Shown here one piece after another: positions 6,429 to 19,987 of a stretch of 33,266 nt of DNA. Below the pieces are notes generated by a model that was not told where the DNA came from, made no database searches, and saw nothing but the letters and a program-made list of their open reading frames with translations. The DNA comes from a virus, in IMG/VR virus record IMGVR_UViG_3300020439_000039, positions 1 through 33,266 of that record. The stretch is one strand, 5' to 3'. Within the stretch, counting starts at the first letter, position 1. The number at the start of each line of letters is the position of its first letter. Made by a program: the position numbers and the translations under genes.

Positions 6429-6945
6429 TATTAGACCTATTCATTTGCTCAGCATTGGATTTTCTACACCAGTTAATTTAACTGATAATAGTTTTGATTT
6501 AACTTCTTCTATATCTGGATCTAGTAAAACTTACACAGCATCTCCATTTTTAATTAGTGTTCCTGAATTTGAAGAACAAACAGATGTAAGTAAATCAAGT
6601 ATTAATATATTATTATCTGGAGCTGATACGACTTTTATATCAGTAGTTTTAAATGAGAATATAGTAAATGATACTGTTGAATTATTTAGAGGTTTTTTAG
6701 ATTCTAATAATGCTCTTATTGCAGATCCTATTTTATTATACTCAGGAAATATTGATACATTTCAGATTGAAGAATCTACAAATAGTTCAAGTATTAATTT
6801 AGCAGTTGTTTCACATTGGGCTGATTTTGAAAAAAAATCAGGAAGGCAAACAAATAATAATTCACAACAAAGATTTTTTAGTACAGATGTCGGAATGGAT
6901 TTTGCATCTCAAACTGTATTAGATATTAAATGGGGTAGAGAATAA
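6379..6945 (+). CDS. Tail hub protein, DUF2163-like
   Basis: This 188-aa protein has AAGGAAGAG upstream. The C-terminal KKSGRQTNNNSQQRFFSTDVGMDF matches, as I remember it, the end of DUF2163-type tail proteins ('R.tn..sQ...f..D.gf'). It precedes the large hub protein, as in GTA/alphaproteobacterial siphophage tail tips. Likely a structural part of the baseplate hub. Confidence 0.65.
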   Translation: MARTLTTAVSNHLATNDIRPIHLLSIGFSTPVNLTDNSFDLTSSISGSSKTYTASPFLISVPEFEEQTDVSKSSINILLSGADTTFISVVLNENIVNDTVELFRGFLDSNNALIADPILLYSGNIDTFQIEESTNSSSINLAVVSHWADFEKKSGRQTNNNSQQRFFSTDVGMDFASQTVLDIKWGRE

Positions 6946-9119
6946 TGGGCTTTCCTAATCCTTTTAAAGCGGTGAAAAAAGTATTTAAACCTGTCGTAAA
7001 AGTTTTTAGAGCAGTAAAAATAGGTAATTTTCTTAAAGGAATAAATCCATTTGTAGCTTTAGGTATTTTTGCAGTTGGATGGCTATTTATGAGATCTATA
7101 AGAAATCCTGAAGTTCCTGATTTTGGAACGAATGATTTTGAAGAAACTGAAAAAGGAATATTAGTAAATAAACAATCAAACAACGCATCTATCCCAGTTA
7201 TTTATGGAACAAGATTAATTGGAGGAACAAGAGTATTTATAGAAACATCAGGTACTGATAATGAATTTTTATATATAGCTTTAGTTTTAGGAGAGGGAGA
7301 AATAAATGGAATATCTGAAATTAGAGTTGATGATAAAGTAGTTACATTTACGGGAGCTATGGCTGATAATACACAAAGAACAGTTGCGAGTTCAGATTCT
7401 AATTTTTATAAAGATGGTCAAAGCTATATAACGATAGAACCTCATTTTGGAACGGATGCTCAATCTAGTTCATCTTTATTGTCAACATTATCATCTTGGG
7501 GTACTAATCATAAATTATCTGGAATAGCATATCTTGCTTTAAAATTTAAATGGAATGCAGATATTTTTGGAGGAGTTCCAGTTGTTCAAGCAAAAGTTCA
7601 AGGAAGAAAAATAGTTACTTTAGCATCAGATCTATCTGAAGAAACTGCAAATTTTTCTACTAATCCAGCATTTTGTATTTTAGATTATTTAAGAAATGAG
7701 AGATATGGAAAAGGAATTGCTACTGCAAATATAGATCTTCAAAGTTTTAGAGATGCTTCAGTTATTTGTTCAACTCAGGTAACACCTTTTAGTGGAGCTT
7801 CGCAAATAAATATTTTTGATACAAACGCAGTTATAGATACATCAAAAAAAGTTATAGATAATGTAAGAGATTTATTGAGAGGATGTAGAGGTTATCTTCC
7901 ATATGTCCAAGGTAAATATAGATTAGTTATTGAAACAACTGGATCAGCTTCTATAAGTTTATCGGAGGATGATATTATAGAAGGATATTCTCTAGCTTCT
8001 CCATCTAAAAATACAAAATATAATAGAGTTATAGCAACATTTATAAATCCTGATCGTAATTTTCAAGCAGATCAAATAACATTTCCTCCAATAGACGATT
8101 CAAGTTTACCTAGTGCAGATCAACACGCAACTATGAAAACTGCTGATGGAGGTTTTTTATTAGAAGGAAGATTTGATTTTAAAACTATTACAAGTCCATA
8201 TCAAGCAGAGGAGATGGCTGAAATTATTCTTCGTCGTAGTCGTGAAAGTATTGGATTAAATATAAGAGTCTTTAATGCTTATTCTTTACATATTGGAGAT
8301 ATAGTAAATATATCTATTGCTAGTTTAGGATTTTCATCAAAAGCTTTTAGAGTCTTATCAATGACTTTTAATGAAGATTATACAATATCTTTAAATCTTG
8401 TAGAACATCAAGATAGTTTCTATACCTTCGCAACAAAAGGACAAGTATCAAGTACTCCTACAACTAATTTACCTAATCCTTTTTCTATTCAACCACCAGC
8501 TTCTATAACATTATCAGATGAACTTATAGAATATGCAGATGGAGTTGTTTTAACTAGATTAAATATTTTAGTTGGAGCTAGTACGGATCAATTCGTCCAA
8601 TATTATCAAGTTGAAGCTAAGAAAAGTACTGAATCAGATTTTAAGATTATTTCAAGTGGAACGCAATTAAATCACGAATTTATAAATGTAGTTGATGATG
8701 CTACTTATAATGTGAGAGTAAAAGCTATAAATAGTTTTGGAGTGAGTTCATCATATATAACTGCTAATAGAAAAATTATTGGAGCAACAGAAATACCTAG
8801 TGATGTAACAGATCTATCAGTTTCTTTAGTTGGATCTAATCAAATGGAATTAACTTGGACACCAGTTTTAGATCTTGATATATCTTGGTATGAAATTAGA
8901 TTTCAAAATGTTACTAGCGGATCTACTTGGAATGAGAGTTCTCCCTTAGCAAAAGTAGTAAGAAGAAAATCTAATAGTGCAGTAGTCAATTTTGCTACTG
9001 GTACTTTTTGTATAAAAGCAGTAGATAAATTAGGAAATACAAGTGCAAATGCTTCATTTGTAACTACTAATATAAGCGGACAAGCAAATTTTAAACAAAC
9101 ACAGGTATTTAGCGAATAA
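6945..9119 (+). CDS. Large tail-tip hub protein with fibronectin III-like domains
   Basis: This 724-aa protein overlaps the upstream stop by one base. A basic N-terminus is followed by a hydrophobic stretch at about residues 34-49. Next comes the tail-hub signature ASIPVIYGTRLIGGTRVFIE and EFLYIALVLGEGEINGISEI, which resembles TipJ/gpJ-like proteins. Two fibronectin type III-like domains lie at roughly 515-610 and 617-712 (NQMELTWTPVLDLDISWYEI). It likely forms the tip that docks the fibres and opens the envelope path. No lysozyme motif is visible. Confidence 0.85.
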   Translation: MGFPNPFKAVKKVFKPVVKVFRAVKIGNFLKGINPFVALGIFAVGWLFMRSIRNPEVPDFGTNDFEETEKGILVNKQSNNASIPVIYGTRLIGGTRVFIETSGTDNEFLYIALVLGEGEINGISEIRVDDKVVTFTGAMADNTQRTVASSDSNFYKDGQSYITIEPHFGTDAQSSSSLLSTLSSWGTNHKLSGIAYLALKFKWNADIFGGVPVVQAKVQGRKIVTLASDLSEETANFSTNPAFCILDYLRNERYGKGIATANIDLQSFRDASVICSTQVTPFSGASQINIFDTNAVIDTSKKVIDNVRDLLRGCRGYLPYVQGKYRLVIETTGSASISLSEDDIIEGYSLASPSKNTKYNRVIATFINPDRNFQADQITFPPIDDSSLPSADQHATMKTADGGFLLEGRFDFKTITSPYQAEEMAEIILRRSRESIGLNIRVFNAYSLHIGDIVNISIASLGFSSKAFRVLSMTFNEDYTISLNLVEHQDSFYTFATKGQVSSTPTTNLPNPFSIQPPASITLSDELIEYADGVVLTRLNILVGASTDQFVQYYQVEAKKSTESDFKIISSGTQLNHEFINVVDDATYNVRVKAINSFGVSSSYITANRKIIGATEIPSDVTDLSVSLVGSNQMELTWTPVLDLDISWYEIRFQNVTSGSTWNESSPLAKVVRRKSNSAVVNFATGTFCIKAVDKLGNTSANASFVTTNISGQANFKQTQVFSE

Positions 9120-10249: not shown

Positions 10250-10573
10250 ATGGCGAATAATTTTTTATCAACAGAAGTATCGTTAACTAATGCTTCCGAA
10301 ACAACAATCATATCTGCAACAAGTAATAAACAAATTATTGTAGGATTAAATTGTGCTAATACTGGTACAGCTACTCTTACTTTAGATGTCACATTGAGAG
10401 ATGGATCTAATGATTTTAAACTTGTTAAAGGTGTTTCTATTCCACCTAATTCAAAAGTGGAAATAGTAAAAGGAAAAATTGTTTTGGGATCAGGTTATAG
10501 TTTGAAGGCACAATCAAGTGCATCAGGCGGAGATGTAGATCTAGTTGTTGGACTATTAACAGATGTAGCATAG
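10250..10573 (+). CDS. Small beta-rich structural protein
   Basis: The product has 107 aa with a perfect AGGAGG upstream. The regular beta pattern (TLDVTLRDGSNDFKLVKGVSIPPNSKVEIVKGKIVLGSGYSL) is what is seen in small virion beta-sandwich proteins of marine phages. It is adjacent to the fibre genes and probably a virion protein. No family name is certain. Confidence 0.65.
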   Translation: MANNFLSTEVSLTNASETTIISATSNKQIIVGLNCANTGTATLTLDVTLRDGSNDFKLVKGVSIPPNSKVEIVKGKIVLGSGYSLKAQSSASGGDVDLVVGLLTDVA

Positions 10574-10581
10574 GAGATTAA

Positions 10582-10770
10582 ATGGAAGAAAAAGATAATA
10601 TTCTTTATGTTGGTAACAAACCGGGTGTAAATGATGTTGATTGTTATCATAAAAAAAGTATATCGCAGAATGTATTTATAGAAGCAAATAGTAACGCATT
10701 ATTTGCTGGTCCTCTTACAGTTACTGGAACAATGACAATAGAATCAGGAGCGACAGTTGTAATAGTATGA
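10582..10770 (+). CDS. Short fibre-accessory protein
   Basis: This 62-aa protein is preceded by TAGGAG. The C-terminus LFAGPLTVTGTMTIESGATVVIV is a repeating beta motif like those in short tail-fibre caps. It overlaps the next gene by four bases (ATGA). Probably a structural partner of the glycine-rich fibre that follows. Confidence 0.6.
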   Translation: MEEKDNILYVGNKPGVNDVDCYHKKSISQNVFIEANSNALFAGPLTVTGTMTIESGATVVIV

Positions 10771-12152
10771 GTAAGATAGAAGTAAATGAAATAGTAAAAT
10801 CATCAGGGTCAACACTTACTTTAGGTGGATGCGGGACAGCAGTTACTTTAGGAAGTGGAGCTACACAAACGGGATTCGGTCGTACTGGAACAGTAGATTG
10901 GCAAACTGGATCAATTAAAACTTCAACTTTTACTGCCGTAGATGGTCAAGGTTTTTTTGCTAATACTTCTGGTGGAGCATTTACAATGAATTTACCTTCA
11001 GGAAGTGCAGGATCAATAGTATCTGTTGTAGATTATACAAATACTTTTCAAACAAACAATTTAACAATATCGCCCAATGGATCACAAAAAATAGGTGGAA
11101 CAAATGCACCCGCGATATTAAACACTGAGGGACAATCAGTAACTTTTATTTATGTTGATGACACAGAGGGTTGGAAAAATATTCAAGATTCAACAAGTAA
11201 CGAAATAGGACAAACTTTTATAACTGCAACTGGTGGTGATGCAATAGTTACATCTGCTTGTGGAAATTTTAAAACTCATATATTTACTTCACCCGGAAAT
11301 TTTGCTGTTTCATCTACTGCAACTTGTGCTGAAAATGCTAAAGCAGATTATGTAATAGTTGCTGGAGGTGCATCAGGAGGAACTGGTAGAGGTGGTGGAG
11401 GCGGAGCTGGAGGTTTTAGATTATCAAATGATACTTGTACACCAGCACCTACTATGTCTCCATTATCAAATCCAACTGGTGTAACAATTTCAGTTCAAAC
11501 TTATCCAATAGTCGTAGGAGCGGGAGGTGCTGCGAGACCATATCCTCCAGCTAACATAGGAAACCCGGGTAGTGTTTCAAGTGCTTTGGGATTAACTTCT
11601 GCTGGTGGAGGTGCAGGAGGTTCAGGTCCAAGTATTGCAACAGCAGAAGATGGAGGTTCAGGTGGTGGAGGTAATTTTAATGTTCCCGGTAGTGGAGCAA
11701 AAGGCTCAGGAAATGTTCCTCCAGTTAGTCCGCCACAAGGTAATGATGGTTCAATTTCATGTAGCGCCGCGCCAAGTAGTCCACCTGATAGACACGGTGG
11801 TGGTGGTGGTGGAGCAGGAGCAGTAGGTGGTGTAGGAAGTAATCACGAAACTGGTGGAGCTGGTTCTTTTGTAGCTGATGCTTTTATTGGTCCAACTGCA
11901 CCAAGTTATGGATCACCCGGCCCAGTATCTGCAACAAGATATTTTGCAGGAGGCGGAGGAGCTGGATTTGAAGGAGGTCCAACTGGAGGTGCTGGTGGTG
12001 CTGGTGGAGGTGGTGCCGGTGGAAGTACTGGTAATGGAACTGCTGGGACTACAAATACTGGCGGAGGTGGTGGAGCAACGGGAGAGAATAATCCATCATC
12101 ATCAGGAGCTGGTGGTTCTGGAATAGTAATGATAAGATATAGGTTTCAATAA
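10767..12152 (+). CDS. Glycine-rich tail fibre/adhesin, paralog 1
   Basis: This 461-aa protein is the first of three tandem paralogs. The N-terminal half (to about residue 145) is a beta domain with VKSSGSTLTLGGCGTAVTLG and FGRTGTVDWQTGSIKTSTFT, shared by all three. Residues about 195-445 are very Gly-rich (GGGG, GGAGG), which may form polyglycine helices as in some phage receptor-binding tips. The end GGSGIVMIRYRFQ is also shared. A PPVSPPQGN motif lies in the Gly region. Likely receptor-binding, by analogy. Confidence 0.8.
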   Translation: MSKIEVNEIVKSSGSTLTLGGCGTAVTLGSGATQTGFGRTGTVDWQTGSIKTSTFTAVDGQGFFANTSGGAFTMNLPSGSAGSIVSVVDYTNTFQTNNLTISPNGSQKIGGTNAPAILNTEGQSVTFIYVDDTEGWKNIQDSTSNEIGQTFITATGGDAIVTSACGNFKTHIFTSPGNFAVSSTATCAENAKADYVIVAGGASGGTGRGGGGGAGGFRLSNDTCTPAPTMSPLSNPTGVTISVQTYPIVVGAGGAARPYPPANIGNPGSVSSALGLTSAGGGAGGSGPSIATAEDGGSGGGGNFNVPGSGAKGSGNVPPVSPPQGNDGSISCSAAPSSPPDRHGGGGGGAGAVGGVGSNHETGGAGSFVADAFIGPTAPSYGSPGPVSATRYFAGGGGAGFEGGPTGGAGGAGGGGAGGSTGNGTAGTTNTGGGGGATGENNPSSSGAGGSGIVMIRYRFQ

Positions 12153-12154
12153 TT

Positions 12155-13540
12155 ATGACGAGTGAAATAAAAGTAAATAAAATTGTTAAATCTTCAGGTT
12201 CTACTTTGACAATAGGAGGATGTGGAACTGCTGTAACTTTAGGTTCAGGAGCAACTCAAAGTGGTTTTGGAAGATCTGGTTCAGTAGATTGGCAAACAAC
12301 AATAAAGACATCTACATTCACAGCAGTAAATGGAGAAGGTTATTTTATTAATACAACGGGCGGAGCTGTAACTGTAAATTTACCAGCAGGATCAGTAGGT
12401 GCGATTATAGCTCTTAAAGATTATGCACAAACATTTGATTCAAATAATTGCACAATTTCTGCAAACGGATCAGAAAAAATTGAAAATTTAACGGATGATT
12501 TAATTTTAAGTACGGAAGGAGTCGCTATCACTTTAGTATATGCAGATGCAACTAGAGGATGGCAATCTGTTAATAGTAATGAAGTAAAAAATAGTTTAAA
12601 ATATGTAACTGCGTCTGGAGGAAATACTACTGCAACTGTTGGAGATTTTAAAGTACATACATTTACAAGTCCCGGCAATTTTTGCGTTTCTTGTGCAGGA
12701 AGTGTAGGAGGATCAAATACAGTAGAATATTTAGTTGTAGCAGGAGGTGCAGGTGGGTCAACTGGTGGAGGAGGTGCAGGTGGATTTAGATTTGCATCAC
12801 CATCAATAGCACCCGCGACTTATCCTGCAAAACCTTTAGCGGCACCAGCTTCTTTACCAGTTTCAGTTCAATCATATCCAATTGTAGTAGGTGCTGGTGG
12901 AGCAGATGGAAGCCCAACTGGTTCTTCTGATGGTGGATCAGGAGGAACTTCATCATTTAGTTCAATAACCTCAGCAGGAGGTGGAGGTGGATCAAGATCA
13001 GGAAGTCCACAAAACGGTGTAGCTGGTGGATCAGGCGGAGGAGCAGGATCAGATGGAAGTGGAGCAACGGGTGGTGCAGGAAACACACCTCCAGTATCTC
13101 CAGCTCAAGGTAATAATGGAGGTGGTTCACCAAGTTCTTGTCACCAAGCGGCAGGAGGTGGTGGCGGAGCTACCGCTGTTGGAGCAAATGGCACACAAAA
13201 TCCAAGTCCCGGTAGCGGAGGAGGAGTTGGAGGTAATGGTGGAGCAGGAGGTGGTTTGCCAAATGCCTTTGGAACTTCTGGAGAAAGTTGTGGATCACAT
13301 TATTATTTTTCAGGTGGTGGAGCAGGAGGATCAAATGTTCATAGTGGATGTGGATCACCAGCAGGACGAGGATCAGGTGGATTAGGTGGTGGTGGACAAG
13401 GTGGTCGTACAAATGGTCAAGTAGGATGTAATGGAACAGCAAATACTGGTGGTGGAGGTGGAGGCTCAGAATATGATGCTGGTAGTGCAGGTAATGGTGG
13501 AAGTGGTATAGTGATAATAAGGTATAAATTTCAAAATTAG
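12155..13540 (+). CDS. Glycine-rich tail fibre/adhesin, paralog 2
   Basis: This protein has 461 aa, the same length as paralog 1. The N-terminal domain is very close (VKSSGSTLTIGGCGTAVTLG) and the end is GGSGIVIIRYKFQN. Between them lies a Gly-rich region with PPVSPAQGN. Differences are concentrated in the Gly region, where loops presumably contact receptor. Reading frames on both strands across this region are artefacts of the GGT/GGA repeats. Confidence 0.8.
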   Translation: MTSEIKVNKIVKSSGSTLTIGGCGTAVTLGSGATQSGFGRSGSVDWQTTIKTSTFTAVNGEGYFINTTGGAVTVNLPAGSVGAIIALKDYAQTFDSNNCTISANGSEKIENLTDDLILSTEGVAITLVYADATRGWQSVNSNEVKNSLKYVTASGGNTTATVGDFKVHTFTSPGNFCVSCAGSVGGSNTVEYLVVAGGAGGSTGGGGAGGFRFASPSIAPATYPAKPLAAPASLPVSVQSYPIVVGAGGADGSPTGSSDGGSGGTSSFSSITSAGGGGGSRSGSPQNGVAGGSGGGAGSDGSGATGGAGNTPPVSPAQGNNGGGSPSSCHQAAGGGGGATAVGANGTQNPSPGSGGGVGGNGGAGGGLPNAFGTSGESCGSHYYFSGGGAGGSNVHSGCGSPAGRGSGGLGGGGQGGRTNGQVGCNGTANTGGGGGGSEYDAGSAGNGGSGIVIIRYKFQN

Positions 13541-13550
13541 GTAAAATATT

Positions 13551-14894
13551 ATGAGCACATTAAAAGTAAATACATTAACAGTAAAATGCGGATCTACAAT
13601 TACGATTGGCGAAAGTGGTAAAACTGTTCAATTAGCAACTGGTGCAAGTCAAACTGGCTTTGGTAGAACGGGAACTGTTGATTGGGAAACAAGTAGTATT
13701 AAGACATCAACATTTACTGCAACTAATGGCGAAGGTTATTTTTGTAATACTACTGCTGGATCTTTTACAGTTAATCTTCCAGCGGGAAGTGCAGGAGCTA
13801 TCGTTGCAGTATCTGATTATGCAAGAAAATTCTCAACAAATAATTTAATAATTAGTCCAAATGGATCTGAAAAAATTGGTGGAGTTGATTCAAATGCCAC
13901 TCTTAGTACTATTGGTCAATCAGCTACTTTTGTTTATGTTGATTCAACAAATGGATGGATTAATATTCAAGAGACATCAAATTCAGTAACTGGACAACCA
14001 CCTTTTATTACAGCAACGGGAGGTACAATTTCTAATACTCCTACTTGCAGAATACACACATTTACAAGCCCGGGCACTTTTTGTGTTTCAGGAGTGAGTT
14101 CAACACCAGCCAATAATGCAGTTGCTTATATGGTAATCGCTGGAGGCGGTGGTGGAGGAGGAGGTGGCTGTGGTGGTGATGCTGGAGGTGGCGGTGGAGC
14201 TGGAGGTTTTAGAGAAGGTAGAACAGCACCAATAACTCCTTACACAGCAAGTCCATTAGCAGTAGCAACTGGAATTACAGTAACAGCTCAAGGTTATCCA
14301 ATAGTAGTTGGAGCTGGAGGCGCTGGAGGAAGTGGGCCGGGAAATGGAACAACTGGTTCTGGATCAAGTGGTTTATGTATATCATCCTCTGGAGGAGGTT
14401 TTGGCAAAGGAAGTACGGGAGCACCACATCCTGCTGGAGATGGAGGATCAGGTGGTGGTGGTAGAGGTGGAGGAGGAATCCCAGCCGCGGGTGGTTCTGG
14501 AAATACTCCACCAGTTTCGCCATCACAAGGAAACAATGGAGGAGTAGGTGGTTCTCCTGCTGGTCCAAATGCACAGAGTCCTGATAATGCAGGTGGTGGT
14601 GGAGGAGGTGCTGGAGCAGTTGGCGATAATGCTGGTCCCGGTGATGATGGAGGCGATGGAGGAACGGGAGTTGATTCATCAATTAATAATGTATCTACTG
14701 GATATGCTGGTGGTGGAGGAGCTTCAGGTTTTCCCGGCGGTTCAGCAAATAAAGGTGGAGGTGCTGGAACAAACTTACCATCAACAAGTACAGGAACTGC
14801 TGGTACTGCCAACACGGGCGGTGGCGGTGGAGGTGGAAGAAATGGAGGAACTGGAGGTTCTGGAATTGTTATTATAAGATATAAAATAGCATAG
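13551..14894 (+). CDS. Glycine-rich tail fibre/adhesin, paralog 3
   Basis: This 447-aa protein starts after a TTAGG-containing gap. The N-terminal domain is more diverged (VKCGSTITIGESGKTVQLAT) but keeps FGRTGTVDWETSSIKTSTFT. The Gly-rich half contains PPVSPSQGN and runs of up to nine Gly, ending GGSGIVIIRYKIA. Together with paralogs 1 and 2 it forms an array that could assemble as a heterotrimer or provide alternative specificities; that is inference. Confidence 0.8.
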   Translation: MSTLKVNTLTVKCGSTITIGESGKTVQLATGASQTGFGRTGTVDWETSSIKTSTFTATNGEGYFCNTTAGSFTVNLPAGSAGAIVAVSDYARKFSTNNLIISPNGSEKIGGVDSNATLSTIGQSATFVYVDSTNGWINIQETSNSVTGQPPFITATGGTISNTPTCRIHTFTSPGTFCVSGVSSTPANNAVAYMVIAGGGGGGGGGCGGDAGGGGGAGGFREGRTAPITPYTASPLAVATGITVTAQGYPIVVGAGGAGGSGPGNGTTGSGSSGLCISSSGGGFGKGSTGAPHPAGDGGSGGGGRGGGGIPAAGGSGNTPPVSPSQGNNGGVGGSPAGPNAQSPDNAGGGGGGAGAVGDNAGPGDDGGDGGTGVDSSINNVSTGYAGGGGASGFPGGSANKGGGAGTNLPSTSTGTAGTANTGGGGGGGRNGGTGGSGIVIIRYKIA

Positions 14895-14931
14895 TTGATA
14901 AAAATTTTAAATATGATAAGGAGTTAATATT

Positions 14932-15360
14932 ATGGCACATTTTGCAAAAATAGGAATGAATGGAAAAGTTATTCAAGTTACTACTATGAGTAATGAAGTA
15001 ATGAAGGATGACCAAGGTAATGAAGTAGAAGCTAATGGTCAACAATGGCTAGAGAGACACAATAACTGGCCGTCTCAAATGTGGATTCAAACTTCATACA
15101 ATACATCACAAAACAAACATTCTTCAGGAGATGATTCAAAAGCATTTAGAGGCAATTATGCTGGTATAGGTTATACTTGGGACGAAGATAATCAAATATT
15201 CTGGCCGAAACAACCTTTCCCTTCTTGGGTAAAAGATCTTGATACTGCTAGTTGGAAATCTCCAATCGGAGATGCTCCTGAATTAACAGAAGAAGAAATA
15301 GAAGAAGATAAAAGATATAATTGGAATGAAGGAACTCAAGCTTGGGATCTGACAAACTAA
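14932..15360 (+). CDS. Virion structural protein of marine-phage type
   Basis: The product has 142 aa and AAGGAG is upstream. The pattern MAHFAKIGMNGKVIQVTTMSN, then IQTSYNTSQNKHSSGD, then FRGNYAGIGYTWDEDNQIFW and PFPSWVKDLDTASWKSPIG matches a family I recall from marine cyanophages and pelagiphages, in which these proteins are virion structural. It ends YNWNEGTQAWDLTN. It probably attaches to or decorates the fibres. Confidence 0.75.
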   Translation: MAHFAKIGMNGKVIQVTTMSNEVMKDDQGNEVEANGQQWLERHNNWPSQMWIQTSYNTSQNKHSSGDDSKAFRGNYAGIGYTWDEDNQIFWPKQPFPSWVKDLDTASWKSPIGDAPELTEEEIEEDKRYNWNEGTQAWDLTN

Positions 15361-15367
15361 TTGATGT

Positions 15368-15880
15368 ATGGTGGTTATTGAACAAAATATATTATCAAAA
15401 ATAGATTTATATGTTGGCAATATTGAAATGCCAAAAGGTTTTGAAATAGATAGAGAAGTTTTAAAAAAAGATATACTTACTCACATCATACAAGATTGTC
15501 CATTTCCCTTTTCAAGAGAGCATGATAAATTAAATACTTATTTAAGAGAACATATTTTTTTAGATTATAAGTTTACATTGATTAATAAATTATCAACTGG
15601 ATATATGTTTAAACCTAATGAATCTAATTTTCCTGATTCTGATAATAATAAAATTGATTTAAGAAATTCGCCAGATTATGTGATGCTCTATGGAGTTGAT
15701 GTTTCTAATTGTCAAATAAGAATTTATTATGATGATAATAGAAGAGCTGGAAGGAGCTGGGATTTACCTTTGGAAAATAATAAATTTATTTTATTTCCCA
15801 GTACTCTTATCTATCACATAAAAAATAATCAAAAAGAAAAACTGAATTTTATTCTTAAAACTACTTATGAATATATCTAA
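15368..15880 (+). CDS. Hypothetical protein, oxygenase-like C-terminal half, motif incomplete
   Basis: This 170-aa protein opens the four-gene oxygenase cluster. The C-terminal half (RSWDLPLENNKFILFPSTLIYHIKNNQ) resembles the last strands of a double-stranded beta-helix oxygenase, with H150 as a possible distal metal ligand. I see no HxD pair, so it may be inactive or a partner subunit. It overlaps the next gene by 14 bases. Alternative: an unrelated phage protein. Confidence 0.5.
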   Translation: MVVIEQNILSKIDLYVGNIEMPKGFEIDREVLKKDILTHIIQDCPFPFSREHDKLNTYLREHIFLDYKFTLINKLSTGYMFKPNESNFPDSDNNKIDLRNSPDYVMLYGVDVSNCQIRIYYDDNRRAGRSWDLPLENNKFILFPSTLIYHIKNNQKEKLNFILKTTYEYI

Positions 15881-16505
15881 TTATTATTGGTATTTTAAAT
15901 CTGCATTAACTCCTAAATTTTGTGATGAAGTTATTAAATATGCTAATCAACAAAAAGAAGTTATGGCTAGAACTGGTGGATATGGCGATAGAAAATTAAA
16001 TAAAGAAGAAGTCAAGAATCTACAAAGAAAAAGAAAATCAGATTTAGTTTGGTTAAATGATTTATGGATTTATAAAGAATTACATCCTTATGTGCATGAA
16101 GCAAATAAAAATGCAGGTTGGAACTTTGATTGGGAAAGATCAGAATCTTGTCAATTTACGAAATATAAACTAAATCAATATTATGATTGGCATTGTGATA
16201 GTTGGGATAAACCTTATGATCGCAAAGATCCAAATCATCCTGAACACGGTAGAATAAGAAAACTTTCTATGACTTGTCAATTAACAGATGGCTCAGAATA
16301 TCAAGGTGGAGAATTAGAATTTGATTTTAGAAATTATGATCCACATATGCGAGACGAATCAAAACATAGAATACAATGCAAAGAAATATTGTCCAAAGGA
16401 TCTATCATTGTATTTCCTAGTTTTGTATGGCATAGAGTAAAACCCGTAACATCAGGCACACGATATTCATTAGTCGTATGGAATATAGGAAGGCCGTTTA
16501 GATAA
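15867..16505 (+). CDS. 2-Oxoglutarate/Fe(II) oxygenase, prolyl-hydroxylase-like
   Basis: The protein has 212 aa. The metal and cosubstrate signature is visible: H109 and D111 (WHCDSW), H189 (FPSFVWHRV) and R199 (TSGTRYSLVVW). The layout matches P4H/PKHD-type hydroxylases, which hydroxylate protein side chains using 2-oxoglutarate and O2. It is one of three such genes in a row, after the fibre genes and before the lysozyme. The substrate is unknown; a virion protein is one possibility. Confidence 0.85.
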   Translation: MNISNYYWYFKSALTPKFCDEVIKYANQQKEVMARTGGYGDRKLNKEEVKNLQRKRKSDLVWLNDLWIYKELHPYVHEANKNAGWNFDWERSESCQFTKYKLNQYYDWHCDSWDKPYDRKDPNHPEHGRIRKLSMTCQLTDGSEYQGGELEFDFRNYDPHMRDESKHRIQCKEILSKGSIIVFPSFVWHRVKPVTSGTRYSLVVWNIGRPFR

Positions 16506-17137
16506 TGTATATTAATAATCATTTTAGCACAGCAATTTGGACAGAACATAAACCTGAATTTGTTAAATCTTTAAACAAAGCTAGTAATAAATATATTAGT
16601 GATGCTCGTAAAAGAAATAAAGAACATATAAAAAAGTTTGGCGACTTTGGTATATCGCATCATTCAACACCATTAACACAAGATAATGATTTTTTAGATT
16701 TTAGAAATTATATTGGTCAAAAATCTTGGGAATACTTAGATCATCAAGGTTATGATATGACACAATATACAACTATCTTTTCTGAATTGTGGGTTCAAGA
16801 ATTTTCAAAAAAAGGTGGTGGACATCATTCCGCACATATACATTGGAATCAACATGTATCAGGTTTTTATTTTTTAAAATGTTCAGATAAAACTTCTTAT
16901 CCAATATTTCACGAACCAAGAACTGGTGCTAGAGCAACAAAATTAAAACTAAAACCAGATATGAAAGGTATATGGGGTGGAACAGAACTTGTTCATTTTA
17001 AACCTAGCCCGGGTACATTAATTATATTTCCCGGTTATTTAGAACATGAATTTGCAGTAGATTTTGGAAAAGAACCATTTAGATTTATACATTGGAATAT
17101 ACAAGCAGTTCCAAAAGAGATGGCTAAAGATGTTTAA
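16505..17137 (+). CDS. 2-Oxoglutarate/Fe(II) oxygenase, TIGR02466-like
   Basis: This 210-aa protein overlaps the upstream stop by one base (TAATG). HIHWNQHVSGFYFLK at residues 111-125, the segment IFHEPRTG, then FPGYLEH ending at H181, and R193 in FRFIHWN form the pattern of the putative 2OG-Fe(II) oxygenases often found in cyanophages and pelagiphages. H111 or H113 and H181 are candidate metal ligands, R193 a candidate 2OG ligand. The substrate is unknown. Confidence 0.75.
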   Translation: MYINNHFSTAIWTEHKPEFVKSLNKASNKYISDARKRNKEHIKKFGDFGISHHSTPLTQDNDFLDFRNYIGQKSWEYLDHQGYDMTQYTTIFSELWVQEFSKKGGGHHSAHIHWNQHVSGFYFLKCSDKTSYPIFHEPRTGARATKLKLKPDMKGIWGGTELVHFKPSPGTLIIFPGYLEHEFAVDFGKEPFRFIHWNIQAVPKEMAKDV

Positions 17138-17750
17138 AAAAAATAAATATGCAATAATTCGTAAAGCTATTGATAAAGATTTAGCAACATTCTGTATGAA
17201 TTATATATTAATGAAAAAACAAGTTTATGATACTTGTTTGCAGGACAGATATATATCTCAATTTGAAACAATGTTAGGTTATTATGAAAAAGATAATGAA
17301 CAAATACCTAATACTTTTTCATTCTACTCTGATATTGCTATGGAGACATTAATGTTAAAATGTCAACCTATTATGGAAAAAACTACGGGATTAAGTTTAT
17401 ATCCAGCATATACTTATGGAAGAGTATATAAAAAAGGAGATATTTTAAAAAGACATAAAGATAGATTTAGTTGTGAAATATCAACAACTATGAATCTTGG
17501 CGGAGATAAATGGGCAATTTATTTAGAACCATCTGGAGCTGAAGGAAAAAAAGGTATCAAAGTTGATTTAGACCCGGGCGATATGCTTGTTTATAGAGGT
17601 TGTGAATTAGAACATTGGAGAGAAAAATTTAAAGGTAAATGTAATGTTCAAGTATTCTTGCATTATAATAATAAAAAAACAAGATTTGCTAAGGAAAATA
17701 TCTTTGATCGGAGAAAACATTTAGGACTACCAAATTGGTTTAAAAAATGA
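17130..17750 (+). CDS. 2-Oxoglutarate/Fe(II) oxygenase, hydroxylase-like
   Basis: The product has 206 aa from the ATG at 17130, chosen over an upstream in-frame ATG at 17064 because it overlaps the previous stop by only eight bases and starts the domain cleanly. H109 and D111 (RHKDRFSCEIS) form HxD, and H162 (CELEHW) is the distal ligand. DLDPGDMLVYRG is the strand before it. The usual Arg after the distal His is not evident; K168 or K170 may substitute. Confidence 0.8.
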   Translation: MFKKNKYAIIRKAIDKDLATFCMNYILMKKQVYDTCLQDRYISQFETMLGYYEKDNEQIPNTFSFYSDIAMETLMLKCQPIMEKTTGLSLYPAYTYGRVYKKGDILKRHKDRFSCEISTTMNLGGDKWAIYLEPSGAEGKKGIKVDLDPGDMLVYRGCELEHWREKFKGKCNVQVFLHYNNKKTRFAKENIFDRRKHLGLPNWFKK

Positions 17751-17760
17751 TAAAAAAAAC

Positions 17761-17839: not shown

Positions 17840-18268
17840 ATGGACAAAGTTAAAGAACGAATCAAATCGCATGAAGGGTTTAGGGATACTGTGTATTCCG
17901 ACAGCTTGGGTTTTGCTACTATTGGCTACGGCCATCTTGTATTACCCGACGATCCTTATGTTGAAGGTGTTGTATATCCTAAAAACGATCTTGAAAAAGT
18001 TTTTGATAATGATTTTAAAATAGCTTTAAGATCTGCTGAAAGTTTATTGGAGGGTATAGATCATAATGAAGATATAAAAGGTGTAATTGTTGAAATGTGT
18101 TTCCAATTAGGAAAACCACGAGTTATGAAATTTAAGAAAATGTGGGAAGGTCTTAAAGAAAAAGATATGCAAAAAATGGCTTCAGAAATGATTGACTCTA
18201 ATTGGCATAAACAAACTACAAAAAGATGTGAATCATTGGCGGAGATAATAGCAAATACTTATATATAG
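17840..18268 (+). CDS. Endolysin, T4-lysozyme type (GH24)
   Basis: The protein has 142 aa. AAGGAG sits upstream of the ATG. The catalytic triad is visible at E12, D21 and T27 in HEGFRDTVYSDSLGFATIGYGH (written across two stretches), one residue off the T4 lysozyme numbering E11/D20/T26. It cleaves peptidoglycan at the end of infection. There is no signal peptide, so release depends on a holin; a holin candidate lies at 20235-20612. Confidence 0.92.
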   Translation: MDKVKERIKSHEGFRDTVYSDSLGFATIGYGHLVLPDDPYVEGVVYPKNDLEKVFDNDFKIALRSAESLLEGIDHNEDIKGVIVEMCFQLGKPRVMKFKKMWEGLKEKDMQKMASEMIDSNWHKQTTKRCESLAEIIANTYI

Positions 18269-19285: not shown

Positions 19286-19987
19286 ATGGCTTATAAAAGG
19301 ATACTCGTAATTAGCGATATGCACATCCCGTACCATCATAAAGACTCATTAGAGTTTTTAAAATGTGTAAAAAAAGAATTTAAACCTGACTTCATTGTTA
19401 ATATTGGAGATCTTTTAGATTTTCACGCAATCAATATGCACACACACGATCCAGATCTTTATTCACCCGGGCATGAGCTCAATGCTTCAAAAAAATATAT
19501 CAAAGAATTAGAATCTATATTTCCCAAAATGATTGAAGTAGATAGTAATCATTCTAGTCTTGTTTATAGAAGAGCTGTTAAGTTTGGAATGAGTCGTCAA
19601 TTCTTAAAAGACTATGGAGATTTTCTTGGAACAAAGAAATGGAAATGGATTGATGATTTAACTCTTCAAATGTCAAACGGACAAAAATGTTTTTTTACAC
19701 ACGGTAGATCTGCTGATGTTTTAAAAGTATCTCAAACTATGGGAATGTCTGTAACGCAGGGACATTACCACACGGCGTTCACAATTAAATATTGGGCTAA
19801 TCCAGATTCTATTTTTTGGGGTATGAATGTAGGATGTTTAATAAATCAGAAATCACTATCAATGAGTTATGCTAAGAATTTTCGTACAAGATTTATTTTA
19901 GGTTGTGGAATAATATTAGACGGTATTCCACGGCTTTTACCTATGGTCTTGAATAATAAGGGAAATTGGATTAAGAAGATAGTATGA
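19286..19987 (+). CDS. Calcineurin-like metallophosphoesterase
   Basis: The protein has 233 aa. The metal ligands are visible: D11 and H13 (ISDMHIPYHH), D42 (NIGDLLDFH), N88/H89 (DSNHS), H139 (FFTHG), H160 and H162 (QGHYHTAF). This is the classic D-H / GD / NH / H / GHxH set of phosphoesterases acting on nucleic acids, nucleotides or phosphoproteins. The start at 19286 is needed to keep the first motif. The substrate is unknown; a DNA-ligand or nucleotide pathway is possible. Confidence 0.88.
   Translation: MAYKRILVISDMHIPYHHKDSLEFLKCVKKEFKPDFIVNIGDLLDFHAINMHTHDPDLYSPGHELNASKKYIKELESIFPKMIEVDSNHSSLVYRRAVKFGMSRQFLKDYGDFLGTKKWKWIDDLTLQMSNGQKCFFTHGRSADVLKVSQTMGMSVTQGHYHTAFTIKYWANPDSIFWGMNVGCLINQKSLSMSYAKNFRTRFILGCGIILDGIPRLLPMVLNNKGNWIKKIV

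Follow-up and report, generated by a model that had tools for sequence, protein, structure and literature searches.

A cassette of four overlapping genes, located between the tail fiber and lysis genes of a marine phage, in a virus record of 33,266 bases (IMG/VR IMGVR_UViG_3300020439_000039; the window, in what follows, is this whole stretch), codes for three predicted 2OG-Fe(II) oxygenases and a putative pseudo-oxygenase. On balance, we slightly favor reading this cassette as a prolyl-hydroxylase system dedicated to the fibers, with the pseudo-oxygenase as its partner; the activity is predicted, and its assignment as prolyl hydroxylation draws on the modeled fold of one of the enzymes (g4) and on the proline content of the fibers. 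More tentatively, we propose that marine phages possess an unrecognized, horizontally exchanged tail fiber prolyl-hydroxylation system, made up of several oxygenases and a pseudo-oxygenase partner, in which fiber prolines would have been gained with enzyme number and to which genes labeled ferrochelatase, and probably DNA endonuclease V, would belong.

2OG oxygenases are common in marine phages, and their roles are debated (repair, nitrogen sensing, or iron/heme metabolism). They have been read as nitrogen stress or repair genes (PMC3037559, PMC2984593) and as iron/heme partners of ferrochelatase (PMC9599517), a label used in that work for heme-related auxiliary genes and also relied on in a study of seasonal auxiliary and viral functions (PMC11561400). 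EGLN3-like oxygenases have been described as widespread in marine phages (Phold, PMC12774648), and Fe(II)-dependent oxygenases are listed in hypervariable islands with an inferred role in host recognition (PMC3909814), which agrees with the fiber linkage described here. Our evidence shifts these enzymes toward the virion, proposing a substrate and a target residue, and removes the misleading ferrochelatase label of phrog_2954. Virus-encoded prolyl hydroxylation of a viral protein is already known, and what would be new is a phage fiber system with a pseudo-oxygenase; in the open-access literature, we found no report of fiber hydroxylation in phages or of a relabeling of ferrochelatase, and nothing useful as a precedent for the pseudo-oxygenase. 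If true, the system would be the phages' equivalent of collagen modification, and oxygen-dependent fiber hydroxylation would couple the infections of abundant ocean phages to the supply of oxygen, iron, and 2-oxoglutarate.

Gene layout of the cassette

The four overlapping genes called in the initial annotation are present as open reading frames, all on the plus strand: g1 (15368 to 15880), g2 (15867 to 16505), g3 (16505 to 17137), and g4 (17130 to 17750), with overlaps of 14, 1, and 8 bases between g1/g2, g2/g3, and g3/g4, respectively. The list of reading frames starts g4 at a TTG at 17064; the ATG at 17130 aligns with the starts of the g4 relatives. The overlaps and the gene order suggest that the four genes form one operon. 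The annotated position between fiber and lysis genes is also borne out. Upstream on the same strand are three PF21722 (Gly_rich_2) proteins, the proposed substrates: glycine-rich fiber 1 (10767 to 12152; E = 7.8e-21), whose last 260 amino acids are 31% Gly and 9% Pro, fiber 2 (12155 to 13540; E = 5.7e-14), which has a relative in HTVC023P, and fiber 3 (13551 to 14894; E = 9.2e-15), which contains GNTPPVSPSQGNN. A small fiber-linked protein, S (14932 to 15360, plus strand; phrog_7759, E = 4.2e-34), lies between the fibers and the cassette, and downstream of g4 a Pfam Phage_lysozyme match begins at 17840. Elsewhere in the window, a 724-amino-acid protein of the tail region (6945 to 9119) contains a fibronectin type III domain, and a calcineurin-like phosphoesterase (19286 to 19987) follows the lysis genes.

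Oxygenases g2 and g3

The count of three oxygenases in one overlapping cassette (g2, g3, and g4) holds by family matches, metal ligands, and the predicted fold of g4. g2 is matched above the cutoff by PF13640 (2OG-FeII_Oxy_3; Pfam E = 1.1e-14) and falls in phrog_61, and its ligands H109, D111, and H189, plus R199, are conserved in 73 relatives. Its PDB relatives are 3dkq and PiuC; the catalytic half is common to g2 and the PKHD-type hydroxylases YbiX/PiuC (3dkq, 9qn1), but g2 scores far below the NCBIfam equivalog cutoffs of the latter. g3 is matched above the cutoff by PF13759 (2OG-FeII_Oxy_5; 48.4 versus 27 bits, E = 1.3e-12). The TIGR02466-like pattern annotated in g3 does appear as a match, but at 50.1 bits it is below the curated cutoff of 62.5, and the motif is HxH...H (H111, H113, and H181, 99 to 100% conserved in 67 relatives), not HxD. 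HxH...H is common to both PDB relatives of g3, 3bvc and 2rg4, and may be a three-histidine iron site. By family match and metal-ligand motif, g2 and g3 are thus predicted members of the 2OG-Fe(II) oxygenase superfamily. The HxD...H motifs that had been seen in g2 and g4 are not chance motifs, since their residues vary little or not at all among 73 and 82 relatives, respectively.

The g4 family and the ferrochelatase label

g4 belongs to phrog_2954 (E = 5.2e-51), which is named ferrochelatase, a label in use for marine phages; no Pfam 2OG model matches it. Across 54 aligned relatives, and also across 82, H109, D111, and H162 never vary, and H109-x-D111...H162 is kept in cyanophage relatives at 26 to 38% identity. 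Looking for the basic residue that would bind 2OG, we found R164 and Q174 invariant among the relatives. The AlphaFold2 model (pLDDT 89.9) has 2OG oxygenases throughout its PDB matches, with Z up to 17.1. Foldseek gave a Pseudomonas putida prolyl hydroxylase as the best match (4iw3/4j25); the matches to this enzyme and to PHD2 have Z of about 15 to 17. The VIA-align scores of SnoN (Z 17.1, root mean square deviation [rmsd] 3.9, 183 residues aligned), P4H (Z 16.6, rmsd 2.6, 161 residues), and PHD2 (Z 16.3, rmsd 2.9, 172 residues) are ties. The modeled likeness to protein hydroxylases is not enough to name the substrate, as antibiotic biosynthesis enzymes such as SnoN score equally. With the P. 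putida P4H that acts on EF-Tu and with PHD2/EGLN, g4 would have in common the fold over most of the protein and the HxD...H ligands; it differs in its low identity (10 to 15%), in being phage borne and linked to fiber genes, and in its substrate, which is a candidate.

PF00762 (ferrochelatase) was absent from g4 and from the whole window in a search that was positive in 8 of 14 control genomes. Because the triad is invariant, the model has a 2OG oxygenase fold, and PF00762 is absent, ferrochelatase is the wrong label for the g4 family (phrog_2954). A Bestrophin match (Pfam E = 0.00087) is below the cutoff and was taken as chance, and a profile search of g4 against PDB chains returned nothing meaningful.

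A second label in these oxygenase clusters, DNA endonuclease V, is probably also wrong, judging from family matches: genes named DNA endonuclease or DNA endonuclease V in cyanophages and in 023Pt_psg01 (L007:2300-2815, L007:3423-4004, L183:8817-9338, and L003:4242-4721) match 2OG-FeII_Oxy_3 with E values from 4.7e-10 to 0.03. According to a review, denV is absent from cyanophages (PMC2984593).

A conserved pseudo-oxygenase, g1

g1 had been described as resembling only the C-terminal half of an oxygenase and as lacking HxD. The second part is correct: HxD and the other metal ligands are missing in 50 relatives, and no His is conserved in 50 to 62 relatives. The first is not, as the AlphaFold2 model (pLDDT 89.9) is a complete double-stranded beta-helix domain. 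Structurally, it is matched best by 2rg4 (Z 15.3, with an rmsd of 3.3 for 159 residues) and by 3bvc (Z 14.9, with an rmsd of 3.1 for 155 residues), so that the TIGR02466/PF13759 family, to which g3 is related by sequence, is the closest to g1 by fold, g1 differing in the lack of any metal ligand; AlkB and the chlorella virus hydroxylase vCPH (5c5t) are also among the matches. Structure prediction had been set beforehand as a test of the cassette, and both proteins modeled, g1 and g4, came out as double-stranded beta-helices. As the oxygenase fold is present in the model and the metal-ligand triad is absent, we consider g1 a predicted full-length pseudo-oxygenase, neither half an enzyme nor an oxygenase. 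When the FPS motifs of g1 and g2 are aligned, Tyr149 falls at the position of the distal His of g2/g3; the alignment score is not significant. Profile searches (Pfam, PHROG, and NCBIfam type) gave no family match for g1, a search against PDB chains gave nothing meaningful, and A2M_recep (Pfam E = 0.13) was rejected as a chance match.

g1 is under purifying selection and evolves faster than g2 to g4 (median dN/dS of 0.25 versus 0.16 to 0.18 for the enzymes). Its protein divergence tracks that of S best, with r of 0.72 for S-g1 versus 0.49 for g1-g2 and 0.45 for g3-g4. As a lead, S (14932 to 15360) and g1 (15368 to 15880) may interact.

Profile comparisons among g1 to g4 found no significant relation, the alignments being shallow and the test weak. 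A local duplication as their origin was set aside with the same qualification. The multistep pathway suggested in the initial annotation gained no support, the four families being mutually unrelated at the profile level; parallel modification of multiple sites fits equally.

Linkage to glycine-rich fibers and block exchange

Across IMG/VR and phage records, 66 of the 101 loci show the exact order g1-g2-g3-g4; contig ends truncate many of the remaining loci. Downstream of S comes g1 in 133 of 136 loci, and upstream of S comes a fiber in 125 of 128. Among the cultured phages compared, the best backbone relative of the window is Pelagibacter phage HTVC111P, with a near full-length match except for the region from about 10250 to 17755, where HTVC111P has a tail fiber and a glycosyltransferase in place of the fiber-oxygenase block; L224, L246, and L254 likewise carry a tail fiber and a glycosyltransferase in this slot. 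HTVC023P, of which 53,918 of 60,878 bases were compared at the protein level, resembles the window only in this block and in three small genes. By protein and DNA comparison, the segment from 10250 to 17755 is thus an exchangeable block with an HTVC023P-like interior and an HTVC111P-like backbone on either side, and fibers, S, and oxygenases travel as one block between phage backbones.

Loci were also collected with the lysozyme as the seed, which is neutral to the question, giving 50 with enough upstream sequence. Oxygenases were present in 8 of the 10 alleles with a glycine-rich fiber and S and in 0 of the 40 without (hypergeometric P = 8e-8, which is too strong a value, several of the loci being near-duplicates). 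No 2OG family turned up when 105 open reading frames of the alternative alleles were scanned with Pfam, and reduced alleles hold one or two genuine 2OG oxygenases each. PF21722 fiber, S, and oxygenases also occur together in the cyanophages S-RSM4, S-SM1, S-SSM5, and S-CAM8 and in phage DSL-LC04. The oxygenase clusters of pelagiphages and cyanophages (HTVC023P, S-SM1, S-RSM4, and syn9) contain the same gene families, several of them beside S and a PF21722 fiber, but are annotated as oxygenase, ferrochelatase, and DNA endonuclease V auxiliary genes.

Some small phages have the fiber and S without oxygenases. The small phages Greip, HTVC025P, CRP-207, and phiPsal1 have glycine-rich fibers but no Pfam-detectable oxygenase, and therefore modification is not required for the fiber to fold. 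Part of the linkage between fibers and oxygenases could come from hitchhiking.

Proline in the glycine-rich domain

Since proline targets predict more prolines with more enzymes, the prolines of the glycine-rich domain, taken as the final 260 residues of the fiber, were counted against the number of oxygenases. The sample, gathered with the S proteins of four lineages as seeds and completed with the other loci of the analysis, contained 274 nonredundant loci. Median proline was 0.017, 0.035, and 0.071 (1.7%, 3.5%, and 7.1%) for loci with 0, 1 to 2, and 3 or more oxygenases (n = 64, 92, and 118; P = 4e-23, uncorrected for relatedness), corresponding to 5.6, 11.3, and 17.5 proline sites per domain. 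Glycine was 0.34 in all three classes, GC content did not rise, and proline was the most shifted residue. The N-terminal part of the fibers showed no rise in proline (0.034 versus 0.025). Among the matches listed (25 of 40 families) for 103 open reading frames of the zero-oxygenase loci, nearly all downstream of S, there was no 2OG family. Phage Bellamy is proline rich with zero oxygenases nearby; it does have oxygenases, at a distance of about 9 kb and amid other glycine-rich proteins. No Pro-Gly enrichment was found in the fibers, so collagen-like Pro-Gly targets were rejected, as was a universal target motif: PP..SP..QGN is frequent (86 of 246 fibers), not universal, and GNTPPVSP is missing in several oxygenase phages.

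The trend might be a lineage effect: one widespread fiber family could owe its many prolines to structure and carry the cassette by chance, and the enzymes would then modify other fiber residues or something else. One clade indeed dominates (54 loci with 3 to 6 oxygenases and 7.7% Pro), and independent contrasts over all loci, truncated contigs included, were not significant (r = 0.07, P = 0.27); oxygenases are undercounted in these contrasts because many loci are truncated. With at least 3.5 kb of downstream sequence and S thinned at 85% identity, a filter chosen after the nonsignificant result, r rose to 0.37 (n = 98), and with both flanks present it was 0.44 (n = 67), with P of about 2e-4 in each case. 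Within clades, at 50 to 60% S identity, the proline differences were of mixed sign. Against a lineage effect, the trend persists across 30 S clusters (rho = 0.72), after removal of the g1 loci (P = 5e-8), and in the well-flanked contrasts, and proline is also high in the unrelated phages S-RSM4, S-SM1, and HTVC033P. We regard a pure lineage effect as unlikely.

Proposed function and alternatives

In the mechanism that we infer, the targets of g2, g3, and g4 would be prolines of the phage's own tail fibers, hydroxylated within the glycine-rich domain during assembly with 2-oxoglutarate, Fe(II), and oxygen from the host. g1 would act as a noncatalytic partner in substrate docking or complex formation, and the phage could benefit from a stiffer or altered receptor-binding fiber. 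Fiber, S, and enzymes would be inherited and swapped between backbones as one block. The initial annotation had left the choice between protein and DNA modification open and called the substrate unknown; the linkage to glycine-rich fiber genes and the rise of fiber proline with oxygenase number favor protein over DNA and would narrow the substrate to the glycine-rich fiber. Counting against fiber prolyl hydroxylation are the nonsignificant all-locus contrasts with their post hoc filter, the mixed signs within clades, the oxygenase-free glycine-rich fibers, the lack of Pro-Gly enrichment, the GNTPPVSP gaps, the SnoN tie, and the possible hitchhiking.

The closest known parallel is vCPH (5c5t) of Paramecium bursaria chlorella virus, which is virus encoded, has the same fold, and is among the structural matches of both g4 and g1. 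The idea attached to it, a virus hydroxylating its own proline-containing protein, is the one proposed here, with prolyl hydroxylation of a viral protein by a chlorella virus being cited in PMC9301287. vCPH differs in belonging to a large virus of a eukaryotic alga and in having a collagen-like substrate, whereas here a phage and a PF21722 glycine-rich fiber without Pro-Gly enrichment would be involved.

Other substrates have to be considered. In Foldseek, g4 is closest to a prolyl hydroxylase solved with EF-Tu (4iw3), and a distant chromosomal g4 relative bears a SEC-C motif, both of which would suit enzymes that hydroxylate host proteins, such as EF-Tu or ribosomal proteins, and take over translation, with an incidental late-operon placement beside the fibers. 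This would leave unexplained why oxygenases follow one fiber type in the same slot and why the proline trend is confined to the glycine-rich domain, and we find it rather unlikely. Modification of a surface glycan or small molecule, for receptor choice or superinfection exclusion, would parallel the glycosyltransferase found with a tail fiber in the same slot in HTVC111P, L224, L246, and L254; it also fits the oxygenases of hypervariable host recognition islands (PMC3909814) and the small-molecule oxygenases, such as SnoN, among the top folds of g4. It does not predict a proline rise in the glycine-rich domain and appears improbable to us. A metabolic role, in which ferrochelatase and oxygenases serve heme/iron use or the oxygenases tune 2-oxoglutarate/nitrogen signaling, has been proposed (PMC9599517, PMC3037559), and seasonal enrichment has been reported (PMC11561400); heme pairing loses its basis because neither the family nor the fold of g4 is that of a ferrochelatase, linkage to a fiber type is not predicted, and we judge such a role very improbable. 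An action on DNA or RNA (AlkB-like repair or base modification), although AlkB is among the structural matches of g1 and a repair role has been suggested for cyanophage oxygenases (PMC2984593), is the least credible, as g4 is matched best by oxygenases that act on proteins and small molecules and the cassette sits among fiber genes and moves with them.

Other genes of the slot and relatives of g4

In some alternative alleles of the slot (L221:3135-4938, L222:2384-4193, and L232:477-2292), the glycine-rich fibers are replaced by three similar proteins in a row, each of about 200 amino acids (MAFISNGTTILDNG...). In HTVC111P, an HlyC-type lysine acyltransferase (L186:4881-5288; PF02794, E = 2e-12) adjoins a tail protein, a position kept in its relatives, and is possibly another tail protein-modifying enzyme. 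The SEC-C relative of g4 is a gammaproteobacterial chromosomal gene with the motif at its C terminus (L198:5956-6699), located beside pantothenate synthesis-like genes; a cellular origin or a protein-binding relative is possible. Last, a contig of 59.5 kb in the Pelagibacteraceae genome AG-422-I02 (L189) codes for a g4 relative with 76% identity, which suggests phage DNA in a SAR11 cell.
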